Below are positions 4,104-23,035 of a stretch of DNA of 34,432 nt, piece by piece. The stretch spans positions 1 through 34,432 of the forward strand of contig PUMZ01000124.1 of NCBI GenBank assembly GCA_003551565.1, given 5' to 3'. Every line of letters begins with the position of its first letter. The first letter of the stretch is position 1. The DNA is from Candidatus Brocadiaceae bacterium. Its GTDB lineage: Bacteria > Planctomycetota > Brocadiia > SM23-32. The position numbers were made by a program, and so were the translations under genes. The notes under the pieces were generated by a model. The model saw nothing but the letters and a program-made list of their open reading frames with translations, searched no databases and was not told the origin of the DNA.

Positions 4104-7100
4104 TCAGCAGCAGGAAGGATCAAACTTCCGCAACCGGCTCTTATTCCTGACAGCCAGAATCATAACCAGACCCGGCACAACGACCAGCAGAACAAGGGCA
4201 TACCAGCCGTGCATGAGCAGGTATGCCATGCCGGATACGGGCAGTAGCGCAGCACCCGTGATCATCCTGAGCGCGGGACGGCCTTCGATGGCCGCTGCGA
4301 GGCGCGGGCTATGCCTGTAATAAGCGGTCACAAAACCCCTTCCCGGGCGGTTTGTGAGCAGATACCGGTCTCTGAACTCGCGCAAAACCTGCACCTGTAG
4401 CGCATCGGCCGAACCAAACGCGGCGGTGGCTATAAAACAGTAGCTGCTGCCGGAGACGCGCCTGACTCTTTCAGCCCCGTCGCCGATACCGAAGACCACG
4501 CCGCTGAAATCGTCAGGATATTGAGGCCGGGTGATTTTGATGGCAGGATCGCCGCTTATTTCAACTATTACATACCCGTCGAACCCCTCCAGATAATGTT
4601 CGTGCTCCGGATCCGTCGGGACAGGTTCGCTGCGGGGCTCGCAAGCCACCCAGTCTTCGAGCGTTTTGTCGAACCAATAAACAATTTTATCGGAGGGCTC
4701 GGTGTAATAGATTTTCAGCATCACCTCGGTCATGTCCGTATCATCAAGGATGAGGAGCTGTGTGAAGGATGCCGTGGCCGAGTGACGGAAAGCTACACCG
4801 GTGGTGTTCTGCGTTCCGGTTGCGCAGACTTCGCCGCCGTCGGTCTCCACAGCGGTACCCTGTCGGGTGTCGACGGACGGCTCGCCGGACCTGGCGACGC
4901 CGGCGCTTCCGGTGGTTTCGGCGCCGAGCCATGGATCAAAATCTACGTTGCCGACGATACCGTCGCCGAAGGCGCCGGGGTTGTCCTCATGGTCAGGACC
5001 GGTATCGTCGCCCCACCAGTTGGAAGTCGCCTTCAGTGCCTCTCCCCCATCCCAAACGACGCCCTTTTCGTTGCCGAAGATGTTATTGAAAACAGCCAGG
5101 GCGTCCGGGGGCGAAGTTCCGGGCTCATTCACGATTCCGGCTGCTGAGCAGCGGGTTATCGTATTGTTCGACACCCTGGCTCCGCTCCCCGTCTCCAGTA
5201 TGTGGATTCCGTATCCGGCGTCTTCAATGCTGCAGCCGTAGATCCTTGCCCCCTCCCCCCCGACGGAAATACCTTTGACAACCTGGCCGTTGCGTCCCTC
5301 CGGTCCAGCCCCGTCGCCATCGAACCCGCAGACGCCGTCCACCACGTTGTCGCCGATCCTGGCATTATCGCCCAGGATGAGGATGCCGATTTCGGAGAAG
5401 TCCGCGATCCAGAACCCTTCCACCGTCACGTTCTCGGCTTCGATGGTGATGGCGACAACCTTGCATTCGGCCGAGATAAAGGTCGCATCCCGCCCTCCGG
5501 TCGAGCGCAACGTGAAGCCGTCGGCGCCTTCCGGTATCGTGATCGGGCCGAAATAAACGCCGGGCTCAACCACGACGGTATCGATTTCCGGATCGTCAAC
5601 GGCCGCATCGATCATATCCTGAATGACGCCCACGATCGTCAGGACGCCGCTCACAAACTCGATGTCGTAGTTGTCCGAAGTCAGACCGGAAGGTGTGATG
5701 CCGTATTCCCCCGTCTCCTCGCCGTCCGGCGCGCGGACGAACGCGAGTTCACCGCCCAGCACCGTGTCGTTTTCACCGGCGACAAAGCCGTCGTAAGTGA
5801 CGGTGAACGCGGGATCGTCCGAACCGTGAACTTTGAACTTGTCGTCGGCGGTGACGGTCAGCGGGGCGGGTGTGATCGCGAAGAGGGGCGGATCGGCTGC
5901 CATCACGAGAGTGTAATTATCGTCCACAGTAAGATCACCCAGCGTGAAGTCGTACTCGCCCGCGTCTTCGCCTTCCATGCGCCCGAGCGCACCGGTGATC
6001 GTATCCGTACCCACCAGATCGGTGTGCGTGCAGGTGAGTTCGGGGTCGTCTTCTCCGTAGACTTTACTCTGATCCGCGTCGGGAGTGATAACGATCTCCA
6101 GGGTCGAGATCGCGAAGGTGGGCGGTTCAGGCGCCAACACCAGCGAGTAATTGGGGCCGGCGGTCAATGTGCCTGTGGTGAAGGCATAATTGCCGACGTC
6201 CTCACCTTCCACGCGCCCCAGCGCGCCTGTGATCGTATCCGCACTCACCAGATCGGTGTGCGTGTAGGTGTATTCGGCGGGATCAGCCTCACCGTAAACC
6301 TTCCCCTGGCCCGCATCGGGAGTGATAACGACCTGCAGGGGGAAGATGTCCGCCTGCAGCTCCGGCTGCGCCAGCGTGTAGTTGCCGGCATCGTTGCCGC
6401 CGAGCGTCATGGCGGTTGCCACGTTAATATTTATGCCGACGCCGGACTGCGCAAACGTGCCCGTCCCGTGATTTTCCAGCGCAACGTCGTCACCGTCCAC
6501 AACGCCCGAAAGCTGCGCGCCGGTCACCACGGCGTCGGTCGTACCGTCGTACGCCCTGTCCTGAGCAACGGCGCCTGTCACGGTCAACTCTTTTGTATTC
6601 ACCGTCACGCTCACCGTGCCGCCGATGGCGTAAACGTCTTGATAACGCACGTCTTCCGGGGTGAAGGTCACACCGACGTCGTGCGTTCCGGCAGCGAGCA
6701 CATCGCCGGGGTTATCGAACGTAAAATCGCCGGCCAGACCGGTTTCATCGCCATCCAGAACCGATTCGGAGAGCGGCTGGCCGTAGGTGATGGCGGAGGT
6801 CGTCGGCCATGCAGCGACGATCAGGCCGAATTCAACGCTGACGTCAACATCCTCATCAATGCCTTCAAGCGTGTAGTTCAGCCCGATGAAAGGCTCGGGC
6901 GACGGATTGCCGTCCGGGACGAGATCGCCGTTGAGCTTCCACTCTGCGGCCATGTAGCCCGCCTCCGGTTCGGCGGTGAAATCGACGTCGGCGCCCGCAA
7001 GCACCGGCGTTCCGCTCACGATCCCAACATCGCCAACCTTTGCCGACAGCACGCCATTCTCGCCACCGGCCACTGCAAAATCGACGACAAAGGCGTCGGC

Positions 7101-10100
7101 CAGTCCCGGCGCAGGCTCCTGGACGTTAGCGGTGAGGAAGGGATAGGAGACCTTGGCTTCCCCGGCGTCGGCCACAATCGACCAGACATCGTCGAAGTCC
7201 CAGCCCGTGAAGGTCGCCCGGAGCATCATCTCCGCCGTGGTCCTGCCGTAAAGTTGCTCATCCGATCCGGCGCTCAGTGTCTGTCCGGTGGTCTCGACGT
7301 CCCAGTAGGAATCATTGACGCTGCCGCCGGCGTGCTTGCTGCCGGCCAGCCCGCCGACGTTTTCGGTACCCGTGACCTCATCCGCAGCGTAGCAATGATT
7401 GACGGATATTCCGGAGCCAATGTATCCTGCCAGTCCGCCGACACGTCTCTCGCCCAGAACGCTGCCGGTTGCATGGGAAAAACTTATGTGAGCAGGCGAG
7501 ACGACAGAAGCACTGTAGCCCGTAAGACCGCCGACATCATCTTTGCCTGTAACATCGCCTGTGGAATATGAGTATTCGATGATGCTGTTGTTCAGACAAG
7601 CTCCGGCCAGTCCGCCGGTATAGTTCCTGCCGCTCACGTTCACGCCGGCAGATGAATATCTGATCGCGCTGGAATTGTTCAACATTCCCACCAGCCCCCC
7701 TACAAAATTGTTGGAACTGATGACGTTCCCGGTCACGTGGACGCGTTCAATGATACTGGAATTATCTGAATATGCCGTCAGTCCGCCCACGGACATTCGT
7801 CCGTTAACGTTTATTTCTTCAAAAGTTAAGCTATAGATAAACGCGCCGTTGGCATATCCGAAGAGGCCGATATAATCCGCACCTGGCCGGTTGATGGTCA
7901 GGCCGCTGATGGTGTAAGCGCCTCCTTCTCCGTCCTCGCCCCTGAGGGAGCCGGTGAACCAGTCATAGTAGTCGCCGACCGGTTCAAAACCGGCGGCGCC
8001 ATTCCAGTTCACCGTATCCGAAGCGTCGATATTGTCGGTGAGCGCGTAGTGCGCGTCAGGTTCCACCATCATCGACTGAAGCTGGTGGACGTTGGCGATG
8101 CCGTAAGGCTCCAGTTCCGTTCCGCTGCCGGAGTCAAACGTCACATCGAACGGCTCAGAAACGGCCGCATCGAGGCCTGCCGCAGTGGCCTCGAGCGTGT
8201 AGCCCTCGCCGACAATTCCTATGAAGACGCCCGGGAATGCGGCCTCGCCGGCGGCGGCATCCACCACGGCCTCGCCCCAAAGGGCGACGTCGCCGTCCCG
8301 GACCGCGAGCGTAATCGAGTCGCCGGCGCCGCCGATCAGGTTCCCGTATGCATCCTGAACCTGCACACGCACGTCGGGGTCGAACGCGACCCCTGCGGGG
8401 CTGTCGCCGGGCTGCACGCTGAACGCGAGCTGCGTGGCCGGGCCCGGGTTGACGGTCAGTCCCGTGGTATTTTCAAGGTCGCCACCGGCCGTCGCATACA
8501 TTGCTTTGATCGTCCATGAGCCGGCTTTCTCCGTAGTATAGGCGCCGCCGACCCACCAGCCGCCCGCTTCCGAATCGATCGCCCACAGAGCGGCCTGAGT
8601 TACGTCGCCCAGATCTTCGTCTTCTTCATCGTACGCGGTGGCCGTGTATGCGACAGTCTGTCCGGCGGTTGCCGTATGGTCAACGGGACTGATCATTATA
8701 TAATCGATATTGGCAGGATCGGTAATCGTGCCGGTGGTGGTCGGTGCATCGTCGAGCGACAGCTCGTAGTTGCCGGCATGCACGCCGGCGAGCATGCTGT
8801 CCCCGGTCAGAGTGACGGTTTTATCCACCCCGACTTCCGCGTTTTCAAACACGGTGACCGGTATCAATGTCACGTCGTCACCCGGGACAACGCCATCAAG
8901 TTCGAGCGAATTATCATCGATCGTGGCCGCGGCATTGCCGTCGAAAATTTTGTCCAACACGGTAAATTCACCACCGATCGTCAGCGTCTTTTTCTCGACA
9001 GTCAGTATGCCGGGGACATAGGTGATGTCGTAGTTATCGAGCCCTGCGCCCTGCGCTTCGCCGATGGTGATCGCATAATCGCCCACCGCGGCCGCGGCCG
9101 GCGCGCCGTCGCTGGCCAGCGCGACGTCATCGACCCTGTCGTCACCGACCAGACCGTCGGTGCTGAACTCATCGCCGTCAAACGCGTAAAGCGTGCCGTA
9201 TTCCTTCCCGAAACTCTCGGCGGTTATTTCCAGCGCTTTCTTTCCGACAGTCAGCGTGCCGTGAACATAGGTGATGTCGTAGTTATCGAGTCCGGCACCC
9301 TGCACATCGCCCACGGTGATCTCGTAACCGTCCACCTCGGCCGCGGTCGGCGCACCGGCGCTGGCCAGCGTGACGTCATCGACACGGTCGTCGCCGAGCA
9401 GGCCAGTCACGTAAAAATCATCTGAAGGCGTCACTTCATCGAAAACCAGCTCATCTCCGTAGGTCTTGGTGCGGTCCTCGGCCGTTATCGTCAGGGCCGC
9501 CTTGACGACCTCGAAAGATCCGGAAGAGAGCGGCTCGAAACTGTAATTGGCAGCCTGCGCCGTTCCCATGTCAATGGTGGTGTTGTATGTGCCGACGGGA
9601 TTGAACTGCTCGTAGTCCGTGCCCAGCACAAACCCGGTGTCATCCAGGTCGCTTTCATCATCGCCGGGGACGAATCCTTCGTACTCGACCCGCACCGCCG
9701 GTGGAGCGTCGCCGTAGGTTATATCATCGGCAACGGCAGTGACCTGAAGGTTCTTCTTGTTCACCGTCACGCTCACCGTGCCTCCGACGGCGTAGGTCTC
9801 CTCGTACCGATCGTCGTCCGGGGTGAAGGTCACACCGACCTCGTGCGTTCCGGCCGCGAGCACATCGCCGGGGTTATCAAAAGTGAACTCGCCGGGCAGG
9901 CCCGCCTGGCCGCCGGTCAGATCCGATTCGGAGAGCGGTTGTCCGTAGGTGATGGCGGAGGCTGTCGGCCATGCGGTGACGATCAGGCCAAACTCGACAG
10001 TCACGTTGATGTCGTCATCGATGCCTTCGACCGTGCAGTTCAGCCCGATGAAGGGATCCGGGAGCGGGTTGCCGTCCGGAACGACATCGCCGTTGACCTT

Positions 10101-13034
10101 CCATTCGGCGGCCATGTAGTCCGCATCGGGTGCGGCGGTGAAGACCACGTCTTTGCCTTCCAGCACCATGTCGCCGGATGCTATGGGCGCGCCGTCCACT
10201 TCGGCGGTCAATGTGCCGTTTTCGCCGACGACCGAGAACGTGACTGTGATCCCGCCCGACACGCTGAAATTGCGACCGGCGAGCCTGTACCGGGCAACTT
10301 CGTATGCAATATCGTCCTCGTTGTCCGTGGCGTGATACCGTGCCGCGGCCAGGTAGGCGGCGTAGTCGGCGGCATCGAGCTCCTCCAGCAGGTACTGCGA
10401 AATATCTGCTTCAAGGAAATCCTCCAGTACGCTTTCGTCTGCGGTAATATTCCATACCATCAGGTTGAGCTGGTTGACGACATCATCGACGATTTCTTCC
10501 CATTCCAGAGTTACAGGGCTGACGACCGACGCCCCTTCTTCAGGCGCCGTGAAGACCGGCGGCGCCGCGGGCTTGGCCAGGAACTCGTCCTGGTCCGGCT
10601 CGCCGAACCAGACCGCGGTCACCATGCCCGTGCCGTCATTGAACCTCAGCGAGAGCGCGTACCAGCCGTCCATGAGCCTGGCAAGCTCGTCGGCCGCATT
10701 TTCTTCGTATCGGATGCGGTCACCGTCCCGTTCCCATATATCATCCCTGCCGTACCGTTCGGGCGACCACAGTGCGGCGCTTCCAATATCGAGCGAGTCG
10801 AGGTCGTCGAATGCGACCTCAAACAAAAATTCTTCGGGGCTGTTCGACGTGCCGCGCCGCAGCCATACCGACTCTATGAAACTGAAATCCGGATTGCCGG
10901 CGGTATCGAAAAGCAACCGCGACTCGCTGACGCGTGCGACGAAAAACTCCACGTTTTCGGGCGTTGAGCCCTCCTCGATATCGGCCAGAGCGAGCCCGCC
11001 CTCGTAAACGGCGTCAGGGGAGAGTGCGGTGAAGGTGTGGGATGTCGCGCCGGCGCCGGGCCATGCTCCGTCTTCATGCTCATGGTCAACACCCTCGATC
11101 CACACGATAAGATGTTCGAAATCGGGTTCCGTGATTTCGTGCCAGGCAACTTGCAGGTCGCCGGAAACGCCGGAGACTCCATAACCCGGCGTGATGACTG
11201 ACGGTATGCTTTCCGGGTTTTTGTCAAGCGTTACACCGGCCGTGGTTTCAAAAACTTCTCCGCCGGTCAGCGTAGCTTCGACAAGGTAATCTCCGTGCGG
11301 AAACATATCGGTCAGCTGCGCCAGGTCGTCCGGCCCGACCATGAGTTCGTACCACCATAGCCCCTCCTCTCCATCACCTTCCATGTCGTACCATACTCCG
11401 TGCGGAGACTTGAATCGTATGGAGTCCACATCCTCCCCTGCCTCCACTTCTATTTCGAAATAATGGGCAACACATACCGCTGCCCCGCCGGGACCCCGCT
11501 GAAAACTCGAAAGCCAGAATATGCCGATATCATAGATCGGATCCGGCATAATGCTCCACTGATGGATCGGATAAGCATTTCCTTCATCGATTGCCCAGAT
11601 GTCATCAAAATCCCAGCCGGCGCCGGTGAACGTGGCCTGCTGTTTCATTTCTTGGGTCGTCTTCCCTTCGGCGCCGAAGTTTTCCGTATCTTCAAAGCCC
11701 ACACCGGGCAATGTTGGATTCATATCGGCATCCCAGAAGGAATCTTCCACCAAACCGCTGTTCGCGGGTGAGAAATCGGCGGCATCAATACCTTGAGCGC
11801 CCACAAGAGCTCCGGTCGGACCATCAACACCGCTAACCACGCCAACGGCATAGGAACGCTTCACGACACCTGCGAATACTTTCCCGTTTTCTTTGAGACC
11901 GTTCATCCCCACCAGCCCGCCGACGTATCTATCGCCACTGACTTCTCCAGTTGAGTAGCAGTCCTTAATCTCTGCATCTTCTAAATTTGCGCCGACCAGT
12001 CCGCCAACGAAGAAATTGCCGCTGACATGACCGGTGGCATAGGACGAGCGTATGATCGTTTCATCGGCATTCTCTCCCACAAGTCCGCCGACACCGTCGT
12101 AGCCGCTGACATCGCCCGAAGCCCAGGAGTCCTCGATCACGCATCTACCATACGCTTCTCCAAACTTGTAGGCGACACCGACCAGCCCGCCCACGGCCCC
12201 TCCTCCGTCTTCCTCCGCACCGATCACCCTCGCGGTGGAATAACAGCGGTCAACGCGGCCGCCTTTATCAATGGTGCCCACAAGACCACCGACATCCAGA
12301 TATCCGGTCACAGTACCGCCGGTGACCGCGCTGCTCCTTACCACCCCTCCTTCGATCCAACCGATCAGCCCGCCCACGAGTCTTGCGGCAGAAACATCCA
12401 TATCCACAGCGGAGCAGCCAATGACCTCACCGCCGAAATCAACCTTACCTATCAGCCCGCCAACGTCCACACCGGTATCGTTATCCGTATCCAGCGGGTC
12501 GTCGATCCACACCCCCCGCACCTCGCCGCCGATTACAGCGCAGTCTTCGACCCTGCCATTGTTATAACCGACCAGCGCTCCAACGCCCTTTTCACCCGTT
12601 ACGTCCATATCTTCCAGCGAGAGGTCAATGATGACCCCATCTTCGTCAAGAATGGCAAAAAGCCCCACCCCGTCCTTTTCCGGCCGGTTGATCAAGAGAT
12701 TCCGGATGCTGTGGCCGTCCCCGTCAAGATGTCCGCCGAACCAGGGGATCGGCTCCCACCCGGCGCCTTCGTTTGCCATTTCGGAGGCATAGGTGTGGTA
12801 ATCAGGGGTATGCTGGTCCAGATCCTGTGTCAGCACATAATCGGCCCCCGGATTATGTCTGACATTATCCAGTTCTTCCCATGTGGAGATCGAAACCGGG
12901 CCGGCGTAGACGGCGCTGGTGAGTTGGAAGAGGACGGCCGCACCGAGCGCCAGGACAATGGCTGTCAGGTGTTTTGCGGCGCTGCTGCGGGATGAACGAC
13001 ATCTTGCACTGGAGTCCATGGCGTCATCGAACAC
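4104..13034 (-). CDS. Giant exported GLUG/MBG/beta-helix protein with CFI-box C-terminus
   Basis: A 2976-residue surface or secreted protein. Order of parts: signal peptide (~20-45, ending near SAVYA-GP); GLUG-type repeats (~120-490, recurrent GGLVG followed by YSTG/YATG); Fn3-like region (~500-870); Gly-Glu-Asn-Gly module then tandem MBG/YDG domains (~935-1440, repeated TYGD and NYDITYV motifs); Big-like region (~1440-1637); a second GLUG array (~1638-1968); a second module plus MBG array (~1983-2465); a right-handed beta-helix (~2465-2705) with NNTITRCSAAG-type turns; and a C-terminal CFIATAAFGS box (Cys2866) with FRDRYLL and YYRHSP, then hydrophobic segments and a basic tail. The last part matches the CFI-box-CTERM class of proposed envelope sorting signals. 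The GTG start has GGGAGG 6 bases upstream; an ATG five codons later is possible. Likely an adhesin or matrix-type protein, possibly a client of the upstream cluster. Confidence 0.92.
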   Translation of the reverse strand: MFDDAMDSSARCRSSRSSAAKHLTAIVLALGAAVLFQLTSAVYAGPVSISTWEELDNVRHNPGADYVLTQDLDQHTPDYHTYASEMANEGAGWEPIPWFGGHLDGDGHSIRNLLINRPEKDGVGLFAILDEDGVIIDLSLEDMDVTGEKGVGALVGYNNGRVEDCAVIGGEVRGVWIDDPLDTDNDTGVDVGGLIGKVDFGGEVIGCSAVDMDVSAARLVGGLIGWIEGGVVRSSAVTGGTVTGYLDVGGLVGTIDKGGRVDRCYSTARVIGAEEDGGGAVGGLVGVAYKFGEAYGRCVIEDSWASGDVSGYDGVGGLVGENADETIIRSSYATGHVSGNFFVGGLVGANLEDAEIKDCYSTGEVSGDRYVGGLVGMNGLKENGKVFAGVVKRSYAVGVVSGVDGPTGALVGAQGIDAADFSPANSGLVEDSFWDADMNPTLPGVGFEDTENFGAEGKTTQEMKQQATFTGAGWDFDDIWAIDEGNAYPIHQWSIMPDPIYDIGIFWLSSFQRGPGGAAVCVAHYFEIEVEAGEDVDSIRFKSPHGVWYDMEGDGEEGLWWYELMVGPDDLAQLTDMFPHGDYLVEATLTGGEVFETTAGVTLDKNPESIPSVITPGYGVSGVSGDLQVAWHEITEPDFEHLIVWIEGVDHEHEDGAWPGAGATSHTFTALSPDAVYEGGLALADIEEGSTPENVEFFVARVSESRLLFDTAGNPDFSFIESVWLRRGTSNSPEEFLFEVAFDDLDSLDIGSAALWSPERYGRDDIWERDGDRIRYEENAADELARLMDGWYALSLRFNDGTGMVTAVWFGEPDQDEFLAKPAAPPVFTAPEEGASVVSPVTLEWEEIVDDVVNQLNLMVWNITADESVLEDFLEADISQYLLEELDAADYAAYLAAARYHATDNEDDIAYEVARYRLAGRNFSVSGGITVTFSVVGENGTLTAEVDGAPIASGDMVLEGKDVVFTAAPDADYMAAEWKVNGDVVPDGNPLPDPFIGLNCTVEGIDDDINVTVEFGLIVTAWPTASAITYGQPLSESDLTGGQAGLPGEFTFDNPGDVLAAGTHEVGVTFTPDDDRYEETYAVGGTVSVTVNKKNLQVTAVADDITYGDAPPAVRVEYEGFVPGDDESDLDDTGFVLGTDYEQFNPVGTYNTTIDMGTAQAANYSFEPLSSGSFEVVKAALTITAEDRTKTYGDELVFDEVTPSDDFYVTGLLGDDRVDDVTLASAGAPTAAEVDGYEITVGDVQGAGLDNYDITYVHGTLTVGKKALEITAESFGKEYGTLYAFDGDEFSTDGLVGDDRVDDVALASDGAPAAAAVGDYAITIGEAQGAGLDNYDITYVPGILTVEKKTLTIGGEFTVLDKIFDGNAAATIDDNSLELDGVVPGDDVTLIPVTVFENAEVGVDKTVTLTGDSMLAGVHAGNYELSLDDAPTTTGTITDPANIDYIMISPVDHTATAGQTVAYTATAYDEEDEDLGDVTQAALWAIDSEAGGWWVGGAYTTEKAGSWTIKAMYATAGGDLENTTGLTVNPGPATQLAFSVQPGDSPAGVAFDPDVRVQVQDAYGNLIGGAGDSITLAVRDGDVALWGEAVVDAAAGEAAFPGVFIGIVGEGYTLEATAAGLDAAVSEPFDVTFDSGSGTELEPYGIANVHQLQSMMVEPDAHYALTDNIDASDTVNWNGAAGFEPVGDYYDWFTGSLRGEDGEGGAYTISGLTINRPGADYIGLFGYANGAFIYSLTFEEINVNGRMSVGGLTAYSDNSSIIERVHVTGNVISSNNFVGGLVGMLNNSSAIRYSSAGVNVSGRNYTGGLAGACLNNSIIEYSYSTGDVTGKDDVGGLTGYSASVVSPAHISFSHATGSVLGERRVGGLAGYIGSGISVNHCYAADEVTGTENVGGLAGSKHAGGSVNDSYWDVETTGQTLSAGSDEQLYGRTTAEMMLRATFTGWDFDDVWSIVADAGEAKVSYPFLTANVQEPAPGLADAFVVDFAVAGGENGVLSAKVGDVGIVSGTPVLAGADVDFTAEPEAGYMAAEWKLNGDLVPDGNPSPEPFIGLNYTLEGIDEDVDVSVEFGLIVAAWPTTSAITYGQPLSESVLDGDETGLAGDFTFDNPGDVLAAGTHDVGVTFTPEDVRYQDVYAIGGTVSVTVNTKELTVTGAVAQDRAYDGTTDAVVTGAQLSGVVDGDDVALENHGTGTFAQSGVGININVATAMTLGGNDAGNYTLAQPELQADIFPLQVVITPDAGQGKVYGEADPAEYTYTHTDLVSADTITGALGRVEGEDVGNYAFTTGTLTAGPNYSLVLAPEPPTFAISTLEIVITPDADQSKVYGEDDPELTCTHTDLVGTDTITGALGRMEGEDAGEYDFTLGDLTVDDNYTLVMAADPPLFAITPAPLTVTADDKFKVHGSDDPAFTVTYDGFVAGENDTVLGGELAFVRAPDGEETGEYGITPSGLTSDNYDIEFVSGVLTIVGVIQDMIDAAVDDPEIDTVVVEPGVYFGPITIPEGADGFTLRSTGGRDATFISAECKVVAITIEAENVTVEGFWIADFSEIGILILGDNARIGDNVVDGVCGFDGDGAGPEGRNGQVVKGISVGGEGARIYGCSIEDAGYGIHILETGSGARVSNNTITRCSAAGIVNEPGTSPPDALAVFNNIFGNEKGVVWDGGEALKATSNWWGDDTGPDHEDNPGAFGDGIVGNVDFDPWLGAETTGSAGVARSGEPSVDTRQGTAVETDGGEVCATGTQNTTGVAFRHSATASFTQLLILDDTDMTEVMLKIYYTEPSDKIVYWFDKTLEDWVACEPRSEPVPTDPEHEHYLEGFDGYVIVEISGDPAIKITRPQYPDDFSGVVFGIGDGAERVRRVSGSSYCFIATAAFGSADALQVQVLREFRDRYLLTNRPGRGFVTAYYRHSPRLAAAIEGRPALRMITGAALLPVSGMAYLLMHGWYALVLLVVVPGLVMILAVRNKSRLRKFDPSCC
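6595..7085 (-). repeat. Internal duplication, copy 2 (second MBG-containing module)
   Basis: Residues ~1983-2146 of the giant protein repeat residues ~935-1098 almost segment for segment: GENG..L, YMAAEWK.NGD.VPDGNP, PFIGLN, SAITYGQPLSES, FTFDNPGDVLAAGTH, GGTVSVTVN. The DNA is also clearly similar, which points to a fairly recent duplication or to gene conversion. Confidence 0.8.
9740..10230 (-). repeat. Internal duplication, copy 1 (first MBG-containing module)
   Basis: This is the partner of the segment at 6595-7085, about 3.1 kb away in the same gene. Both copies are followed by MBG-type domains and lie about 3.1 kb apart, as do the two GLUG arrays (about 3.4 kb), so the duplicated unit may originally have been GLUG plus module plus MBG. 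Confidence 0.8.
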
Positions 13035-13456: not shown

Positions 13457-16400
13457 TCATTGAACCGCCGCTCCGCAGCCGGTGCAGAACCGGGCGTCTT
13501 GGCCGATCCTCCCGCCGCATTGCGTGCAAAAGCGGGGTGGGGCAGCGGGCTCCGTCGGTTCCACGTCTTCGACCTCTTTCTCTCCCCGGTCATCATAATG
13601 TTCAGGTGCGGGAAGATCTTCGACCGTTATCAGCGTGGCACGCCCTTTTCTGACCCGTATCGGAATCTCCGCCACCCCGTCATCTATCATAGCCCTCAAT
13701 GCATAAGTCCCTTCCGGGAGCTCATGACTGTCTCCGAATTTTCCAGCGAACACCTCCTGCCCCTCTCTGTCGTACAAGGCATAACGGATTACCGGACTGA
13801 TTGCCTGTTCCAACGACCGTACCAGCGACGGGCCGTCCGTTGCATTATAATAAACTCCTTCGCCGCCGTCCGCCATGCCGCGCAGATTCTCCCTGTCCAC
13901 CATCTGATCAATCATAAAGCCTATTACGATATACTCCATATCGGGATGCTGTTGGCGCAGTGCACGGCTCTTGGCCACCGGATCTCGCCGGAAGCTCTCG
14001 ACGCCGTCGGTCAAAACAATCACCCGGGGCCGATCCAATCCGCGCAGGTCGCGGGGTATCTGCTCTATGGTATGGGCCAGTGGCGTGGCGCCTCGGGCAT
14101 TTATACTCCTCACCGTCCTGATGAACGCCTCACGGTCAAGCGGACCAACCGGTATCAGCAGTTCCGAATCAACCGCAGCTCTGGCCCGCTCATCGCCGAA
14201 CGAACGGTAACGGTGCCCGTAAACCCGCAGCCCAACCTCGGCATCGTCGGGCAAAGTGTTGACGACCTGCTCGATAACATCGAAGGCCACGTCCAACCTG
14301 GTGCGGTCTTCAAGCTCGATCAACATGCTGCCGGAGGCGTCCAGAACGAAGAGAATGGGCAAATTTTCACCTGCCGGAGCTTTTGTAATAAATTGCCCCG
14401 GCTGCCGCCGCCGCACGTGGAAACGCAGTGCATAATCCACCGGGGATTGCACGTCGCGTAAAACCTCTTCATAAGATTCAACAAGCTCATGATCGGCCTG
14501 GGGTTCGAAGTATCGCCCGTTACAAAACCAGGCGGCATTGAACAATCCCCGAGCCGCCGTCCATCCGGTGTTGCTATCCATGTGGTCCAGCCTCAGCGTC
14601 TGGCTGCCCCACCCGACCGTATAAAGACGCTGGCTGGTCATATGCAATCGGTCCCACATGGTAAAATAATTTCCGGAACCCACACCGTCAGCCACCAGCA
14701 CTTTCGCCCCGATCCCCCCGGAAGGAAGGTTATCATCGGCCCATTCCAGCATATCGCGCAGAAAATTGTACCAATCCGAACCGCCACGCCGGGCATCGAA
14801 CATCGCTCCGTTTGCCTGCTCTAACGCTTCGGCATCCCGCGAATAAGGGCTGAAAAGGGTGAAATGTTTTCCCGTCTCCGGATCTTTCAAGGAGGAAGCA
14901 AGAGCGATATAGACCCCTTCGGGCAAATCTTTCAGCAGCCCCGGCAGACTGCTCCGGGTGATGGGCAGCGCGCGTCCCATGCTACCGCTGGTATCGAATC
15001 CCATAAACAGGTAAACAGGTGCCGAAGTCACTTCGACCAGGTAATCTCCCGGATCCACAGAAAGTTGGTAAATAAGTGAAGTCCCCCCCCTCCGTTCGGG
15101 TTCCGGGATCTCGACAAGTTTCCCTTCTCCATCCAGAACGCGCACGCGTCCCCGCACAAAAGGCGCCATATGAAGCTGAAGTTCCGGGACTTCCGTGCGG
15201 CTCTGATAATCCACCGTGATACGATAAGAATGCTGCAGCTCCGGCCCGTCGAGGCGGGAGCCGGCCCACTCGTTCTGATCGAGTTTTGCGGCATTTTCCG
15301 GGAAGAAATCGGCTTCTATCTTGCGCACTTTTGCCGCATCCTCACCCATCAGCGAATCCAAAGTCGGCTGCTCCCGATGGCGCCATCCGACGCCGTCGCC
15401 ACGGATCAGGACGCTCTCGTAGCCGGGAGCGCTCCCTTCCAGCACAACCAGCTCACCTATACTGATCTCGTCAAATTCCTCCCTGTGTTTAAACTCCAGC
15501 CGCAGAAATCGTGCAGCGACGGGTTCCGGGAACTCGATTCGCCAGGGAAGCTCGCCAGTCATTATTTCGTATTCCCCCACGGCTGTGTAGCCCTGAAAGG
15601 GCTCTTCCTCCGATGCCGATATCTTCATAAGATGCGGCAGATGACGGCGTCTTTCCTCGTGATCGGCGGGCCAGAGCTCGATCGAGTCCACGAGTGCGGT
15701 TCGGTTGGCCTGAAAGGCCAATATGACGGGGCTGGTCCAGGATTTTTCGTCACGACGCCATCGAAAGTAATCGCGTCCATCCGGCGCTGTGAGCAGATGC
15801 GCTACGTTTCTCCGCGTATCCTCCGTCGTATGAAAAACAGAGCCCCCGTAATCAATCCGCGAGATGTTCGATCCTCCCCGCGACAAAACCGACTCCGACT
15901 TGTCGTCCAGCGGCCCTTCGAAAGCCATAAATTCAATCAAACGCGTATGCATGCGGCTGCTTTCCTCGCTTCCGATATCTTCAACCGTCAGGCGTATCTC
16001 CTGCGTCTCAACCGGATCAAACTCGAGGACCCGCATGTGGGTTTCAACCATTCGCTCATCCTCAATCGCGGCAATGGTCATGTGTCCGTCCTCTCCATCC
16101 GGAACCCCGATCGTGAGCTTCAGGTCCTCCTCCCAACGCGACAAGACCATTGCCAGACGGTTGATACCGGCTCTGTGCATCCCGGCGAGTTCAATCTGAT
16201 ACCCCCCGATATACAGCCTTCGCCCGCTGACGTCCAGCCGCCCGTTATGGACTTCCAAAAGACGGTAATCGCTCTCATCGGTATGCGTACTGACCCTTGC
16301 TCCCAGCGGACGCAGCGCAAGGTTCACGCCGTCGCGGTTCTGCCTGCGCACCCACGATTCCATCTCATCCTCTCCGACAATCCGCATCCGGGCAAGGCCC

Positions 16401-18871
16401 GTCAACTGCATATCTTCCTCAGGTTGTTCCTCCTCCGGTTCACCCCCCCCTACCGGATCCAGCACCAGCAAAGGTTCATCGTCCTCAGGCATTGCAACTT
16501 CAACCTCATCCGGTGCCTCGGCCGGTTGTTCCGCCGCTTCAACAGGAAGGGGCCCGGGTTCTTCCACCACGGGATCCGTCTCCTCCACAGGCACGGATTC
16601 CTCAAGTTCGGCCAGCTCGACAATCTCGGCCAGACTGAAACCCCGATAGGACAGGCGCAGCTGCGTTTCATTGTGGTCGATCAGGTAGGCAAGCTGAAAA
16701 CTGCGCTTTTCGCCGTTCGGCACCCAGACATTCTCGACCGGACGGTAGATGCCTTCGAACGTGGCCCTGTGCGGACGGCTCTGGCGTCCCCGCGCATCCA
16801 CATACTGAAGCTGCTCGGAGGTCTGAAAAAACTCGGGTTTATCACCGGCATTGCTCACCGTCACATCCAGCACCATAAACCGCTTCCCATCTATGGCCTG
16901 GATGCCGGCAAAGCTTTCGGCCGCCGACTGCGCCGTCACCGCCACCTCGACGGTATCGTCCACGACGCTCCAGAGCACGTCTCGCCCGGTCGGCTCCGGC
17001 GGTTCGCCGTGCAGCCTGAATCTTACGGGCTGCGGCCGCATCAGTTCCCCGCCCGGCAGCCTTGCGTTGGGAAAGTCTCCGCGCAGCTCCAGCGACTCGA
17101 AATTTCCCGGGGCTAAAAACACCACACGCCCGCCGGTCATTGTATCGGGCAGAAATCGCGGGTCCTCAGGCAGCGTGGAGAGGTCCGGCTCCGGCGCATA
17201 AGCGTACTCGCCGTCAACGACGAGGTGAGTGTACTTTGTGGCCTCCAGCCAGTCAGAGACCGTGCCAATCTCGATTTTTTCTCCCCTTTCCGCCCCGGGG
17301 ACAAAGGCCGTGGCGTCGGTCTGAAAGGTCAACATGCTGCGTGCTCTCAGGTCAACGGAGATGAATGCCATCCCCGGCGGCGCTGTGCGCCCGTCGAGTT
17401 CATCGGCAAAGTCCGTGCCATATACTGCGGCCTCTACGATCTCGTTGACCGCCGGAGGGAATGCAGGCTCCTCGGGTTTTCGATCGGCGCGGGGATCAAT
17501 CGCATCGAGCACATGCGCCGTCATATGGCCGTGGGCAAAATCGTAGAACCGGAACTCGAGTGTTTCCGGTTCTGCATCCGCCGGTATTTCATACGCCAGC
17601 GTTCCCCGCTGTTTGTTTCCTTTATCGGGCAACAGAATTTCGGTTTCTTTTCCCAGCAGGCGGGGGATTCCATCGATCTCACGCATCGGCGCCACGCGCC
17701 ACCCGTCCTTGATCAGGTAGAGGTGGTTGCCCAGAACCGGAATATTGTAAGCCACTGGCAATTCCCGCTCGCGCACCCACTGCGGGGCCAGGAGATTCTC
17801 CCACTCCACATCAAAGACCAGCCAGCGGCGCCCCTCCGGCGCAAGCGCCGGACCAAGTGAATCCAGCGAGGAAACGGAATGGACCGTCATCCGGACGGCC
17901 CTGCTTTCCACTTCCAGGCCCAGCGAATGCGTCCGTCCGGCGGCCAGCTGCGACGGCGGCCCGATCGGTTCGAAAGCAACGACCGGGCCCTCTTGCGCGG
18001 GCGAGAGTAAAAAATCGAATTGTCCGCCGGTTCCCGCATAATCCAAATGTTCCTGTTCCGGCGCAGGCAGAACAACCACCCGTCCTGCGACGCGACCTTC
18101 GCCGTACACCGCAGCCCTGTTCCCTCCCGCCGGGCTGAGGTGTACGCCGCCGCAGGCGGCCTCTGCCAGCTGCACCCCGCCGCGTCCGGAGCACAGAACA
18201 GCTTCCAGCCGGGGAAATTCCTGCCGCAGAGCGACAGCTTCGGCCAGTGGCAGATCCGCCAGAAGGACCACAGCATCGGCCTCCGGAGCGCGCGCGAGGG
18301 TCCGGGCAAGGGCTTCCGGCGGGGAAACGTAGGTTATGCCCGGTATGGTTCCCCTGCCGGGCAGATCCATGGAGGGACTGCGCCCTGCCACCCCGATAAA
18401 AACAACTTTCCATCCGTCCCTTTCCACTGCCACGTAAGGGTCCCAGGTTTGATCGGGCATGGTAAAGCTTGCCGATATAAAGCCGGATTCACAGCCTGCT
18501 AACGCTTCCCTGAATTCAACGGCATCACCTGTCAGGTCGCGATGCGCAAGGTTCACCACATCCACTCCGGCAGCTTCGAGCATAGCGACGGCGAATGCTG
18601 CCTCCCGGCCGGGAGGCGCGCCCGCGGAACTCAGGGCTCCTCCGGTTACAACCAGCATGGACCCGGGCGCTGCATCGGATGCTTCAAGAAGCGAGTCGCG
18701 TCCATGCCGCGCGATCAGCCAGTCACCGGGGTCGCAGAGGTGAACGACACTCCGTGCGGCCTGTGCATCCGGGCCGAAAGCGACGAACAAAGGGAGCGCC
18801 AGGCAGGCAAAAAAGCACAATAAAATGCCTTGCCGGCGTTTTTCCTGGAGACGTCTTGCTGTGTTTGCCAT
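13457..18871 (-). CDS. Exported twin-VWA protein with C-terminal zinc ribbon
   Basis: An 1804-residue protein with a signal peptide (hydrophobic ~18-36, ending DAQA-AR). Residues ~40-270 resemble the 5'-nucleotidase metallophosphatase fold (VVNLAHRDL, DGWKVVFIGVAG), but the metal-binding NHE motif is lost, so it is probably inactive. Two DUF4352-like beta-sandwich regions follow, then an acidic Pro/Glu linker (~760-825), discoidin-like regions (~850-1150, RFLRLEF...EISIGELVVLEG), and two VWA domains with MIDAS motifs DTSGSM (Asp1293) and DASGSM (Asp1511, with LTDGVES). The last 24 residues are a four-Cys zinc ribbon. The ATG at 18871 has AGGGGAG 10 bases upstream. An ATG at 18880 overlaps the preceding stop (ATGA), implying translational coupling, but sits too close to that ribosome-binding site. 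Probably an envelope scaffold or metal-dependent adhesion protein. Confidence 0.9.
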   Translation of the reverse strand: MANTARRLQEKRRQGILLCFFACLALPLFVAFGPDAQAARSVVHLCDPGDWLIARHGRDSLLEASDAAPGSMLVVTGGALSSAGAPPGREAAFAVAMLEAAGVDVVNLAHRDLTGDAVEFREALAGCESGFISASFTMPDQTWDPYVAVERDGWKVVFIGVAGRSPSMDLPGRGTIPGITYVSPPEALARTLARAPEADAVVLLADLPLAEAVALRQEFPRLEAVLCSGRGGVQLAEAACGGVHLSPAGGNRAAVYGEGRVAGRVVVLPAPEQEHLDYAGTGGQFDFLLSPAQEGPVVAFEPIGPPSQLAAGRTHSLGLEVESRAVRMTVHSVSSLDSLGPALAPEGRRWLVFDVEWENLLAPQWVRERELPVAYNIPVLGNHLYLIKDGWRVAPMREIDGIPRLLGKETEILLPDKGNKQRGTLAYEIPADAEPETLEFRFYDFAHGHMTAHVLDAIDPRADRKPEEPAFPPAVNEIVEAAVYGTDFADELDGRTAPPGMAFISVDLRARSMLTFQTDATAFVPGAERGEKIEIGTVSDWLEATKYTHLVVDGEYAYAPEPDLSTLPEDPRFLPDTMTGGRVVFLAPGNFESLELRGDFPNARLPGGELMRPQPVRFRLHGEPPEPTGRDVLWSVVDDTVEVAVTAQSAAESFAGIQAIDGKRFMVLDVTVSNAGDKPEFFQTSEQLQYVDARGRQSRPHRATFEGIYRPVENVWVPNGEKRSFQLAYLIDHNETQLRLSYRGFSLAEIVELAELEESVPVEETDPVVEEPGPLPVEAAEQPAEAPDEVEVAMPEDDEPLLVLDPVGGGEPEEEQPEEDMQLTGLARMRIVGEDEMESWVRRQNRDGVNLALRPLGARVSTHTDESDYRLLEVHNGRLDVSGRRLYIGGYQIELAGMHRAGINRLAMVLSRWEEDLKLTIGVPDGEDGHMTIAAIEDERMVETHMRVLEFDPVETQEIRLTVEDIGSEESSRMHTRLIEFMAFEGPLDDKSESVLSRGGSNISRIDYGGSVFHTTEDTRRNVAHLLTAPDGRDYFRWRRDEKSWTSPVILAFQANRTALVDSIELWPADHEERRRHLPHLMKISASEEEPFQGYTAVGEYEIMTGELPWRIEFPEPVAARFLRLEFKHREEFDEISIGELVVLEGSAPGYESVLIRGDGVGWRHREQPTLDSLMGEDAAKVRKIEADFFPENAAKLDQNEWAGSRLDGPELQHSYRITVDYQSRTEVPELQLHMAPFVRGRVRVLDGEGKLVEIPEPERRGGTSLIYQLSVDPGDYLVEVTSAPVYLFMGFDTSGSMGRALPITRSSLPGLLKDLPEGVYIALASSLKDPETGKHFTLFSPYSRDAEALEQANGAMFDARRGGSDWYNFLRDMLEWADDNLPSGGIGAKVLVADGVGSGNYFTMWDRLHMTSQRLYTVGWGSQTLRLDHMDSNTGWTAARGLFNAAWFCNGRYFEPQADHELVESYEEVLRDVQSPVDYALRFHVRRRQPGQFITKAPAGENLPILFVLDASGSMLIELEDRTRLDVAFDVIEQVVNTLPDDAEVGLRVYGHRYRSFGDERARAAVDSELLIPVGPLDREAFIRTVRSINARGATPLAHTIEQIPRDLRGLDRPRVIVLTDGVESFRRDPVAKSRALRQQHPDMEYIVIGFMIDQMVDRENLRGMADGGEGVYYNATDGPSLVRSLEQAISPVIRYALYDREGQEVFAGKFGDSHELPEGTYALRAMIDDGVAEIPIRVRKGRATLITVEDLPAPEHYDDRGEKEVEDVEPTEPAAPPRFCTQCGGRIGQDARFCTGCGAAVQ

Positions 18872-18876
18872 AGCGA

Positions 18877-21195
18877 TCATTCTCCCCTGGCAGCCCTGAC
18901 GGCTCTATCGGCCCTGTTCATGGCGCTCAGCGCCTGATTTGCCGTGCCAAATATGCTGCCCAGATGTGTCGCCCCCATCTTTTTTGAAATGGCTTTACCG
19001 GCGCCAAGCTTCCCTCCCGCACCTTCCGTGCCGGTCAGGCAGAAGGCAAACCCCGCAGCAGCTTCTGCTTCCCCGCGAGCCCCCGATTCAAGGCCCGAAC
19101 CGAGGGCCTGGAGGAAACACTTGAGGTTTTTGATAGTCTGTTTCTGTATTTTAGAATACTCCGACAGCGCCTGCCCCTCCCCGCCATCTCCGCGTCCTAT
19201 TGCCGCACATGTGGCAGGGTCTATGCTCCACCAGCTGTTCGGAGCCACGCCCCCGGCAAAAAGCACGGTGCGGCCCGCTTCGTTATGCTCTATTCCCCAT
19301 TCTGCAAGTGGAGCTGGACTGTCATGGGGCGCATCATACGGATAAAACAGCTCCGCCTCGGCCAGTGCGGTATGGATTGTTACGGGCGGGACGAGTTCTC
19401 TCAGCAGCAAGGCCTCAAAAGCGGTGGAAGCCACGCCCAGGGATACATTCGAGCGGGCGGCCGTTTGGGAGTGGAGGGATTCCCGGGGTCCCAGGTGGAG
19501 TGCGTCCCAAACCACATCAAGAGAAGTCCTTGCCAGAACCTGCCGGGCTTCACCATCGCATCTGATCTGTGTGGTCCACATGCTCACTGCGGGGCCGGGC
19601 AGAATCGTCAGATCTGGATTTTGTACCTTTTGCCGGCCGGCCAGCGCCAGACGGGCAATCTGCCACTCGTAAAGCATCCTCGGCATTCGCACCGGAGCAT
19701 CGTCCGGATATCCGGAGGGATCGGCGGCAGCCAACACCTCCGCCCACACCCCGGCATTGGCAGTTATTGCATCCAGCGTCATCCAGAGCATCGACGCCGG
19801 CCCTATCGGCCCTCCGGCCGCAACGATATCGGCGTGGAAAACCGGCGACACCCCCTCCCGGAGCGGTCCGTAAAGCAACCTCCGCTGGCGGACCACGGGA
19901 ATTCCGGGGCGATCGATATCAAGTGCCAGAGTTATCGTTTTGAGGCCCGTTGCGGCATCCTCCGCCTCCTCCCGCGGCGGGCCGAACAGCCCACCAAAAG
20001 CATCCTGTATTCCCCTTCCGATCTGCCCTGCAACTGCTATTCGCCCGTCGCCGCCGACCTCGTGGAGCTGCCCCGTCGTATCGAAGACCTGCGAAGTATA
20101 TCCCTCCGCCCCCACCAGCAGCACCACCTGGAACCGGTCAAATCCTTTGACGTATTCATACCACTCTTCGGCTTTCCACTCTCCCGGCCGGGCTCCGGCC
20201 CCTTCCCCGCCAACCGGCACCACTTCCAAGCGCATTGGTTTCCTGAAAAGATCCCCGAGTTCTTCGGTATATTCAAAAATTTCAACCTGTTCGGCATCTT
20301 CACCTTCCTCTGCGGCCAACGTCATTTCCATGCGGAGCGTCAGAGTTGCGATCCGCTTCGGGGGAATGTCAGAAACACGCCGCGCCTCCGTCCAATCCAC
20401 CTGCTTTGCGTCGGGACCGAGTTCCAGAAGGATCCATCCGTCCGGGGTATTCACTTCGACGGCGACCGCCTCTGCCGCAGCACGTTTCAGGCTCCTCATC
20501 CATGCCGGAAAATCAAAACCGGCCGCCGGGCCAATTGGAGGCTCGGCCAGCCGGTGCACGATAAAATCCGCATGGCGCTCGCCGGCATCATAGGCCTCAT
20601 CCAGGAGGCGCCGCCACCGGGCGGAGGCGTTTGCCGTCAGGATGGTGCGATCCCGCACCGGCACGCCGTAGCGCCGGAGCAGTTCGGTGTTGGAAGTTTC
20701 GTCGGCATAGCCGCCGGGTTCGGATTCAGGTATCAAGCCGCTTGCATCCGCGGCAAGAAATTGTTCAACAACCTCTTCCCGGCCTTTTTCATCCCGAGGC
20801 GCCACGACAAACCGTACGGGATAGCCACCGGCTTCAAGCACGGCCCGGAGCAGCGCCGCCCTGTCCCAATCGCCGCCGGCCCCGGCAGAAAGAGTGCCGG
20901 CGGGGCCACGCACCACGCCCAGTTCGGGCTGCCAGGCGATCCATTCACGAATCGCATCGGCAAGATCATAAGGGCTTCGGCCCACGGAACACACCACCGC
21001 CACAGGATCGTGCGGGGAGTTATCGACCTGCAGGACATCCTGCCTGATCTGCCGGGCGAGGCGGACATAGGCGCCGGAAGCACAAACATCGGCTATTGCT
21101 AAATCACCCTCGTCCGTCCGGGACACGGTTCCCGGGAACATCGAAACCGAGACAATCACAAACAGCCATAAAACCCGGCGCCATTTTATGGACAT
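18877..21195 (-). CDS. Exported protein with degenerate transglutaminase-like domain
   Basis: A 772-residue protein with an N-terminal signal peptide (RRVLWLFVIVSVSMF). Residues ~70-130 match the transglutaminase-like core (GGDWDRAALLRAVLEAGGYPVRFV). The later segment EAVAVEVNTPDGWILLELGP (~240-260) corresponds to the usual His-Trp-Val-Glu...W..LDP stretch. The expected Cys is absent and the His reads Ala, so peptide crosslinking activity is unlikely; a binding or scaffold role is more probable. The rest (~260-772) has no domain I recognise; it ends in a Gly/Ala-rich, basic tail without a zinc ribbon. AGGAG lies 5-8 bases before the ATG. It follows the small ribbon protein by 92 bases and its stop overlaps a potential start of the twin-VWA gene, so it is in the same transcript. 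Confidence 0.85.
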   Translation of the reverse strand: MSIKWRRVLWLFVIVSVSMFPGTVSRTDEGDLAIADVCASGAYVRLARQIRQDVLQVDNSPHDPVAVVCSVGRSPYDLADAIREWIAWQPELGVVRGPAGTLSAGAGGDWDRAALLRAVLEAGGYPVRFVVAPRDEKGREEVVEQFLAADASGLIPESEPGGYADETSNTELLRRYGVPVRDRTILTANASARWRRLLDEAYDAGERHADFIVHRLAEPPIGPAAGFDFPAWMRSLKRAAAEAVAVEVNTPDGWILLELGPDAKQVDWTEARRVSDIPPKRIATLTLRMEMTLAAEEGEDAEQVEIFEYTEELGDLFRKPMRLEVVPVGGEGAGARPGEWKAEEWYEYVKGFDRFQVVLLVGAEGYTSQVFDTTGQLHEVGGDGRIAVAGQIGRGIQDAFGGLFGPPREEAEDAATGLKTITLALDIDRPGIPVVRQRRLLYGPLREGVSPVFHADIVAAGGPIGPASMLWMTLDAITANAGVWAEVLAAADPSGYPDDAPVRMPRMLYEWQIARLALAGRQKVQNPDLTILPGPAVSMWTTQIRCDGEARQVLARTSLDVVWDALHLGPRESLHSQTAARSNVSLGVASTAFEALLLRELVPPVTIHTALAEAELFYPYDAPHDSPAPLAEWGIEHNEAGRTVLFAGGVAPNSWWSIDPATCAAIGRGDGGEGQALSEYSKIQKQTIKNLKCFLQALGSGLESGARGEAEAAAGFAFCLTGTEGAGGKLGAGKAISKKMGATHLGSIFGTANQALSAMNRADRAVRAARGE

Positions 21196-21287
21196 TCTCT
21201 CCTCCCCTTACCCGGCTGCTGGTTGAGAAAAATTTGATCTATTTGCCCTCCGCGGCACACCGCTTTAGATTGCCTTTTTGCTTTGAG

Positions 21288-21890
21288 TCATTGAATTTTC
21301 TCACCACATTGGGAGCAAAAATTGTCGATTTTTTCGACTTCTGCACTGCACCGGCCACAAAAATCCTTTGCCGCGGTCTGTGCCCTCCTCCACACACTTT
21401 GAGCGACCTCAGGGCCATAAATCCGTTCAACAGTTCCTCGCCGTTCACTCCAGGAGTGGAAGTGATGCGCTCGCCGGCGACTCCCAACCTCGGGGACTTT
21501 CGCCCCATAGCGCAGCGGGCTCCGGAGATAACGGGCACTGCTTGTGGCCAAAGGGCCCGACTCTCCGAAGCGGCTGCCGCGAGAAACTGCGCGGGCAGAT
21601 TTCGGAGCAATAACGCCGTACCAAAGAAATCTTTCCGACCAGACCGGCCATGAAGACGGATGGTGGCGGGCCGCCAAAGGCATGACATGGTGAAACGCAG
21701 GTCGTTCCAAAGAGAAATATAATATTGGTTTGCATTGCCTCAAGGGGCGGTTGGCACCGGTATAAGCCCCTTCCCGGGGTTCTTCGCCCATGACGGGAAG
21801 GGACAGCAGCATGACAGACAACGCTACCGCGAGCATTACGGAACCAGCGGAAAAACGCTCCGCTGCATTTTTAACCGAGCAGCTTTTCAT
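21288..21890 (-). CDS. Small exported protein with C-terminal zinc ribbon
   Basis: A 200-residue protein of unknown function. The N-terminus is a clear signal peptide (hydrophobic VMLAVALSVMLLSLPVMG, cleavage near Gly-Glu). The last 24 residues (177-200) are a four-cysteine zinc ribbon with the same spacing and terminal Gln as the ribbons of the neighbouring CsgG-like and twin-VWA proteins. The start at 21890 has GGAGGGGGAA directly upstream; an ATG ten codons earlier has none. The central part (~40-150) is Arg/Ser/Pro/His-rich, has unusual composition and matches no family I know. Both other minus-strand frames are also open across much of it, so a pair of compensating frameshifts or a sequencing error cannot be excluded. 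Its position between the CsgG-like and transglutaminase-like genes implies shared expression. Confidence 0.7.
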   Translation of the reverse strand: MKSCSVKNAAERFSAGSVMLAVALSVMLLSLPVMGEEPREGAYTGANRPLRQCKPILYFSLERPAFHHVMPLAARHHPSSWPVWSERFLWYGVIAPKSARAVSRGSRFGESGPLATSSARYLRSPLRYGAKVPEVGSRRRAHHFHSWSERRGTVERIYGPEVAQSVWRRAQTAAKDFCGRCSAEVEKIDNFCSQCGEKIQ

Positions 21891-21921
21891 TTCCCCCTCC
21901 CCGATAAATGTTTTAAGCAAC

Positions 21922-21957
21922 TAATTCTTTTTCAAGACTTCGCTTGAAAAAGAATTA
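21922..21957. repeat. 15-bp perfect inverted repeat, hairpin family copy 1
   Basis: TAATTCTTTTTCAAG and CTTGAAAAAGAATTA pair perfectly around ACTTCG, 32 bases upstream of the start of the small zinc-ribbon gene. It is followed by an ACGAC/ACGAG-rich tract (21962-21990). A related element lies at 24789-24813 upstream of another minus-strand gene. The rest of 21958-22135 shows nothing else. Confidence 0.7.
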
Positions 21958-22135
21958 ATAAAACGACCACGAGAACGACTACGACTGAGCGGCAAACGAC
22001 ATCATTTTTCAGTACATCTGCAATTTGTTGTCGATGTTGCGCCCTTAAGCGCCAGTTTCCATGCCACAAATCGGCGCCTGTTTTCCAGATCGCATTGGAC
22101 GTATTTTTGCACGCAATCCAGGCCACCTTAATACC

Positions 22136-23035
22136 CTACTGAACCGCCGTGCCGCAACCGCCGCAGAACGCTGCATCGGCTTGAAGCTCCCCGCCGCACT
22201 GCGAACAAAACCTGGCTGTGGCCGGTGGCGCTGCGTCCGTAGATACCGGTGCAGCCCTGACCAGTACACGCTGGTCTATTTCCGGCAGCATCTTTCGCAG
22301 AGTATCGTCGAATGCCAGACGCATAACACGTCCTGCATCGTCTTCGGAAATGACAACTTCCGCATCTCCTCTGCCTCCTACTCCCGCCACCTCGATACCC
22401 ATGCTCCGGGCCGTGTCCTGCTGTCGGAACTGGCTGAAATGTGCGGATTCCATCTCTCCCGTGGTCGGATCGACAAGGCGCAGGTCCACGCCCATCTCGA
22501 ACGTGATGACCGTCTCCTCCTGTTCATAGCCCCCCGTAACACCCTCAATCTGGTCCGAGAGCCACCCGCGGCCCACGCCGAGCTGACGTCCGGTCCTTTC
22601 GGTGGTGACCCGGAACCCGGTGATTTTACCCAGCAGCAGGTAGTCCACGCCGCGCACCTGGGCGGGCTGCGCCATCTCGCCGGCCCTCACGATTCCCTCC
22701 AGATCCTGTTCGGCAAGCAGCTGGCCCAGCTGCGCCCGTTCGATCACGTTAAATCGCCCCGTACGGTGCATCAGCGTCGTCAACTGATCCGCCGCCATAC
22801 CGTCAAGCCTGACGGTACTGAAACCAAATCTTCCCCGGGGCTCTTCCACCGAAAAAGGCGGCACTCCCACCCTTACCCTCTGCGCACCGGGCGGCGGAGG
22901 GTCATAAATCCCCACGTGGGCAGTTGTGGGATCCCGCTCAGCCCTCTGCCCAACATCAGCGCAGCCCAAAAATCCAATTGCTCCCCCGCATAACAGACCG
23001 ATCAAAATAACCTTCCCCCGCCTTACTTTTCTCAT
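22136..23035 (-). CDS. CsgG-like lipoprotein with C-terminal zinc ribbon
   Basis: A 299-residue protein of the CsgG/HfaB type. CsgG forms an oligomeric outer-membrane channel for curli subunits, and relatives take part in envelope assembly. Evidence: a hydrophobic leader with a lipobox-like FLG-C (Cys25), RVRVGVPPFSVEE, MAADQLTTLMHRTGRFNVIERAQLGQLLAEQDLEGI, GVDYLLLGKITGF and a beta-rich segment ending FDDTLRKMLPE. The usual CsgG family ends there; this protein adds a Pro/Ala linker and a 24-residue zinc ribbon (276-299). The start at 23035 has GGAGGG 7 bases upstream; an ATG 21 codons earlier lacks a site and would spoil the signal peptide. It is first in the exported-protein cluster, about 180 bases from a strong promoter. 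A pore role is inferred from the family, not shown. Confidence 0.87.
   Translation of the reverse strand: MRKVRRGKVILIGLLCGGAIGFLGCADVGQRAERDPTTAHVGIYDPPPPGAQRVRVGVPPFSVEEPRGRFGFSTVRLDGMAADQLTTLMHRTGRFNVIERAQLGQLLAEQDLEGIVRAGEMAQPAQVRGVDYLLLGKITGFRVTTERTGRQLGVGRGWLSDQIEGVTGGYEQEETVITFEMGVDLRLVDPTTGEMESAHFSQFRQQDTARSMGIEVAGVGGRGDAEVVISEDDAGRVMRLAFDDTLRKMLPEIDQRVLVRAAPVSTDAAPPATARFCSQCGGELQADAAFCGGCGTAVQ

Follow-up and report, generated by a model that had tools for sequence, protein, structure and literature searches.

Four-cysteine zinc ribbons of the Zn_Ribbon_1 type are typical of the cytoplasm. The locus described here raises the question of what such a ribbon does at the C-terminus of proteins that appear to leave the cytoplasm. 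It lies on a contig of a Candidatus Brocadiaceae bacterium (Planctomycetota), of which 34,432 nucleotides were analysed (hereafter, the window). The stretch under study, 13457–23035, spans 9.6 kb and carries four minus-strand genes, with the following features.

22136–23035, minus strand: P0001, csgG-like lipoprotein gene (signal peptide, lipobox ...GFLGC, CsgG domain, Ala/Pro-rich linker, ribbon).
22136–22210, minus strand: C-terminal zinc ribbon of P0001, FCSQCGGELQADAAFCGGCGTAVQ, then stop (motif and Pfam; model pLDDT 80–93).
21288–21890, minus strand: P0002, orphan frame (signal-peptide-like start, unassignable middle, C-terminal ribbon).
21288–21362, minus strand: C-terminal zinc ribbon of P0002, FCGRCSAEVEKIDNFCSQCGEKIQ, then stop (motif and Pfam).
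18877–21195, minus strand: P0003, predicted exported transglutaminase-like protein (weak Pfam match, syntenic orthologues); this gene, between the ribbon genes, has no ribbon.
13457–18880 (start at 18871 or 18880), minus strand: P0004, giant VWA/DUF4352 protein of 1,807 aa (Pfam, orthologues).
13457–13531, minus strand: C-terminal zinc ribbon of P0004, FCTQCGGRIGQDARFCTGCGAAVQ, then stop, with the VWA-type signature FCTxCG...RFCTxCG.

The initial annotation had described a C-terminal ribbon common to P0001, P0002 and P0004, and this was confirmed: all three frames end in F-C-x2-C-x9-F-C-x2-C-G-x2-[VI]-Q, with the stop codon directly after the glutamine. Pfam Zn_Ribbon_1 matches are found at residues 297–318, 187–208 and 1784–1805, respectively; their scores are just under the curated cut-off for the whole proteins and above it in the genome-wide search. 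The genome (3.8 Mb) contains six copies of the unanchored motif (none of the reversed control). Anchored to the stop codon, it occurs three times genome-wide (control, none), always inside the 9.6-kb stretch; the chance of three genome-wide copies landing within 9.6 kb is, by a rough estimate, about 6e-6. The other ribbons of this genome are found in a SpoVG-like tail, at N-terminal or mid-protein positions in membrane proteins and on one apparently foreign contig. The 9-kb contig G000:C7 (L031) consists of a single open frame that encodes Ig-like repeats, a single transmembrane helix and a tail with four ribbons; it is probably a contaminant of the MAG and of archaeal origin.

A ribbon at the C-terminus is in itself nothing new. 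Among the other stop-anchored matches in the phylum, cytoplasmic SPFH/band-7 proteins form the majority, and the C-terminal zinc ribbon of the band-7 protein YdjL of B. subtilis has already been published (PMC11237479); the position alone is not unusual, contrary to what the initial annotation had supposed. The YdjL type resembles the window proteins in that a flexible linker leads to a ribbon from the same Pfam family at the very end of the chain; the YdjL-type proteins, however, are cytoplasmic, lack a signal peptide and have an unrelated main domain, and Pfam gave no band-7 match in P0001–P0004. The knuckle spacing, Cys-x2-Cys-x10-Cys-x2-Cys-Gly, is that of the families Zn_Ribbon_1 and DZR (PF13240, PF12773). 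What differs is that the ribbon is here predicted to be extracytoplasmic and is a single unit of 24 residues, with doubling confined to certain CsgG and split VWA proteins.

P0001 has a CsgG domain (PF03783; E = 1.1e-16, 61 bits against a cut-off of 20.8), and a profile search of the PDB also finds CsgG (1e-4). Its AlphaFold model (pLDDT 79.6) is poorly predicted in the linker before the ribbon. The top Foldseek matches of this model are 4uv2, 4uv3 and 6l7c (E about 2e-8, TM score 0.4–0.5 by target); 4uv2 and 4uv3 represent the pre-pore and membrane forms of E. coli CsgG. Like curli CsgG (PF03783; 4uv2, 4uv3), P0001 combines a lipoprotein signal with the CsgG domain, and its predicted fold has the long beta hairpins and the helix at the C-terminus; it differs in the Pro/Ala linker and zinc ribbon that follow this helix, and in sharing its operon with genes for VWA and transglutaminase-like proteins. 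None of the curli partners CsgA, CsgB, CsgE and CsgF was found among the window proteins scanned, a set that takes in part of the small frames. In the model, the long strands 191–209 and 216–235 would be compatible with a nonameric transmembrane pore. LpoB, PelC and GNA1162 share the CsgG fold, and not every lipoprotein with this fold is a pore. Some CsgG orthologues in other genomes carry two tandem ribbons (L114, L110, L115, L125), followed in L115 by an additional domain of about 140 residues; in several genomes two different ribbonless csgG copies adjoin as a tandem pair (L063, L071, L118–L122).

If the proteins were not exported at all, the ribbon would be an ordinary cytoplasmic one, as is typical of Cys4 ribbons of this type and as the similar C-termini of SPFH proteins of the same phylum might suggest. 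Three observations argue against this. The lipobox cysteine, the predicted acylation site, is invariant among 33 aligned CsgG homologues; hydrophobic signal-like N-termini are present throughout, as a signal peptide with lipobox cysteine in the CsgG orthologues and as a signal peptide in the VWA proteins; and the P0001 model contains no transmembrane segment able to bring the C-terminus back into the cytoplasm. We regard a cytoplasmic location as highly improbable, and the claim that the ribbon sits on exported proteins holds at the level of these predicted signals.

The third ribbon protein, P0002, is doubtful. Its codon score is -0.125 (-0.33 for wrong frames and +0.18 for true genes), and all three frames are open in this stretch. 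No relatives were detected in the family of the genome or in plasmids, no frame has a Pfam match beyond the ribbon, and syntenic loci such as L034 and L068 lack P0002. A structured RNA beneath it was considered and rejected, there being no Rfam match. The case for an intact gene is weak; since the signal-like start and the ribbon share one frame, P0002 may be a decayed or young gene (or else a frameshifted one). The interpretation below leaves it aside.

The genes csgG, transglutaminase-like and giant VWA constitute an old, patchy operon of Planctomycetota and Verrucomicrobiota-type MAGs. In a genome of the same GTDB family (G001), csgG with ribbon, the transglutaminase-like gene and the beginning of the VWA gene follow one another as in the window, and the VWA C-terminus with its ribbon is on a separate contig. 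A search of named genomes with P0004 as query gave no match; the search with a CsgG alignment gave 25 loci, from Planctomycetota, Lentisphaeria, Kiritimatiellota, Opitutales and Verrucomicrobia MAGs, together with three weak outliers. Most of these loci, and further genomes from the phylum searches, show the three-gene neighbourhood in varying gene order. Its distribution is patchy, with 20 of the 392 genomes of the phylum and two of the 75 of the class at E<=1e-20. The association of the ribbon with CsgG-like and VWA genes, which had been proposed as a check, is found as a CsgG + VWA operon across phyla. A ribbon, FCGSCGCRMAPDTRFCQSCGAKRQ, also ends a short, unrelated lipoprotein from a different Planctomycetota genome (L041 1084–1575, G009), which indicates that exported C-terminal ribbons are not confined to this operon.

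The transglutaminase-like member is predicted from its sequence to be inactive. P0003 has only a weak Transglut_core match (0.0064, below the cut-off), and its core motif GGDWDRAALL lacks the catalytic cysteine; the motif (GGDWDRAALL/ANAADQALL) is cysteine-less in all 12 orthologues where it was located. A ribbon is never present on the transglutaminase-like protein.

P0004 is composed of a signal peptide, a remotely UshA-like N-terminal part, DUF4352, VWA, a Pro/Glu linker and the ribbon. The VWA model (pLDDT 88.4) shows a standard VWA domain and a beta domain, a disordered linker (below 50 at 259–271) and the ribbon (83–89). Ribbonless VWA orthologues end right after the post-VWA beta domain. 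In many genomes, CsgG and VWA proteins alike bear the 24-residue Cys4 ribbon on a flexible Pro/Ala/Glu-rich tether, as a clean add-on to a preceding domain that needs no ribbon to be complete. At their N-terminal end the giant VWA proteins are similar to UshA-like (seleno)proteins (NCBIfam NF041198; 1.8e-31 for P0008 at L034 2–2161, 6.9e-5 for P0004). Their middle differs by lineage (P0004 compared with L033, L069, L107 and L125), with either F5/8-like and second VWA domains or a squalene-cyclase-like toroid. A second VWA copy in the genome of L068 (L174, G745:C70) ends in a half-ribbon, TRFCTGCGAPVR, as if a deletion between repeats had removed one knuckle.

The ribbon state of the CsgG and VWA proteins was tabulated for 26 genomes. 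Both carry it in 13 genomes (G000, G001, G745, G431, G821, G321, G327, G243, G297, G312, G288, G313, G620), CsgG alone in four (G398, G028, G430, G822) and neither in nine (G058, G823, G824, G432, G131, G433, G152, G590, G827); no genome has the ribbon on VWA alone. The association is significant with genomes counted as independent and kinship ignored (one-sided Fisher p = 2.3e-4). Among phylogenetically independent pairs, which are too few, two agree and none disagrees; with only two such pairs, the coupling is suggestive rather than established. The ribbon has been gained or lost several times: the CsgG tree requires at least six changes, and well-supported branches make four of these unavoidable. 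The finished Kiritimatiellota genome B12222 yields just two Zn_Ribbon_1 matches at E<=0.003 (38.3 and 34.3 bits), and both belong to this operon, one at the CsgG tail and one at the VWA tail. The four CsgG-only genomes showed no other exported ribbon protein at the threshold used, and a CsgG ribbon beside a ribbonless VWA protein implies that it has some other use, at least there. A shorter, split VWA protein in G288 and G312 has its ribbon or ribbons N-terminal, directly behind the signal peptide; G312 also has a separate DUF4352 protein with a C-terminal ribbon.

The ribbons of the two proteins bear different signatures. Those of VWA read FCTxCG-x7-RFCTxCG nearly throughout; those of CsgG have a variable first knuckle, and their second is mostly FCGGCG or FCGSCG. 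Each ribbon has thus resided for a long time on its own protein. An origin of the tag by local copying was ruled out by the same comparison within genomes (FCTxCG...RFCTxCG in VWA against mostly FCGGCG or FCGSCG in CsgG). Of the proposal that the ribbon is a transferable local tag, the shared tail on exported proteins stands; the age and separate signatures of the CsgG and VWA ribbons, and the doubt over P0002, speak against the rest. The CsgG ribbon of G620 (L160) has its last cysteine changed to aspartate (FCPTDG), FCPRCGTKLPGGAKFCPTDGQAIQ.

Given its repeated gain and loss, the ribbon might have accreted neutrally and persisted through drift or hitch-hiking, with no role specific to this system. 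Ribbonless orthologues indeed look complete, and similar ribbons occur on unrelated cytoplasmic proteins. Yet judging from substitution patterns the ribbon is under purifying selection, dN being well below dS and lower than in the linkers in four pairwise comparisons (of only 23–26 codons each). The four-cysteine knuckles are kept nearly everywhere, across two phyla, while the linkers vary, and the ribbons are paired within one operon. Neutral accretion is accordingly quite improbable.

Docking, retention, sorting and redox or metal control had been listed as possible functions, and docking appears to us the best of these. The explanation that we prefer is that the ribbon, on its flexible tether, serves outside the cytoplasm as a docking module that links the CsgG-type assembly with its VWA partner; we give it a probability of roughly one half. 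The operon would encode an envelope complex with three members, namely an outer-membrane lipoprotein of the CsgG type and two exported proteins, one transglutaminase-like and inactive, the other a giant VWA protein. The ribbon would adopt its zinc-bound fold in the periplasm. Members of the CsgG family assemble into rings (nonamers in E. coli), which would place a ring of ribbons near the periplasmic mouth of the pore. This ring would capture the VWA ribbon, either by ribbon–ribbon contact or through a shared partner, and the captured VWA protein might then be held at the CsgG assembly or passed through it. The more specific idea that the zinc ribbons of the CsgG ring and of the giant VWA protein pair with each other, as a periplasmic zinc-ribbon zipper that holds or selects the partner at the secretion pore, is a tentative one and the odds are against it. 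Outside the cytoplasm, the cysteines of the ribbon could form disulfides instead of a zinc site.

In another interpretation, the ribbon responds to zinc or to redox conditions: in the periplasm its four cysteines would switch between a zinc-bound and a disulfide state and gate or report the state of the CsgG assembly, the VWA ribbon being read independently. The near-universal retention of the Cys4 knuckles beside variable linkers would fit such a switch, as would the persistence of the CsgG ribbon without a VWA ribbon in four genomes. It does not predict, however, that VWA ribbons occur only alongside CsgG ribbons, and the aspartate in the G620 ribbon fits metal binding better than a disulfide switch. 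We consider this interpretation unlikely.

A sorting or retention signal for a dedicated export machinery, similar to CTERM signals, was also considered. The exact C-terminal position in most cases and the tail shared within the window suggest it, and the neighbouring protein P0005 has a domain of this type: it is a 2,976-aa repeat protein (4104–13034, minus strand; MBG, YDG, GLUG and beta-helix repeats) with a CFI-box-CTERM domain at its end. The CFI motif is absent from all related loci scanned. CFI-box-CTERM and other sorting domains are likewise short C-terminal domains shared by otherwise unrelated exported proteins; the ribbon tail differs from them in being Cys-rich, in having neither a transmembrane or hydrophobic helix nor a basic tail, and in being restricted to one operon. 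Sorting fits poorly with CsgG, which is already lipid-anchored as a lipoprotein, and with the VWA proteins of G288 and G312, where the ribbon follows the N-terminal signal peptide. Moreover, many orthologues lack the ribbon, and B12222, which has just these two, offers no broad set of sorted cargo. This part of the initial proposal is very unlikely to be correct. For the docking module, the N-terminal ribbons of the split VWA proteins suggest that the tether matters rather than the position.

In the open-access literature searched, we found no description of an exported CsgG/VWA ribbon pair, and nothing relevant on CsgG with a zinc ribbon or on CsgG together with VWA and transglutaminase. Nor does a paper on secreted SH3 domains and zinc ribbons (PMC5906684) describe the exported pair. 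If the conserved, paired use of the ribbon on exported proteins is true, zinc ribbons of this type, which are seen as cytoplasmic modules, would also fold and act outside the cytoplasm. The finished genome of B12222, with just these two ribbons, makes the docking idea directly testable. The paired use would offer a first approach to the function of the CsgG/VWA operon, which is large and so far uncharacterised, in Planctomycetota and Verrucomicrobiota.
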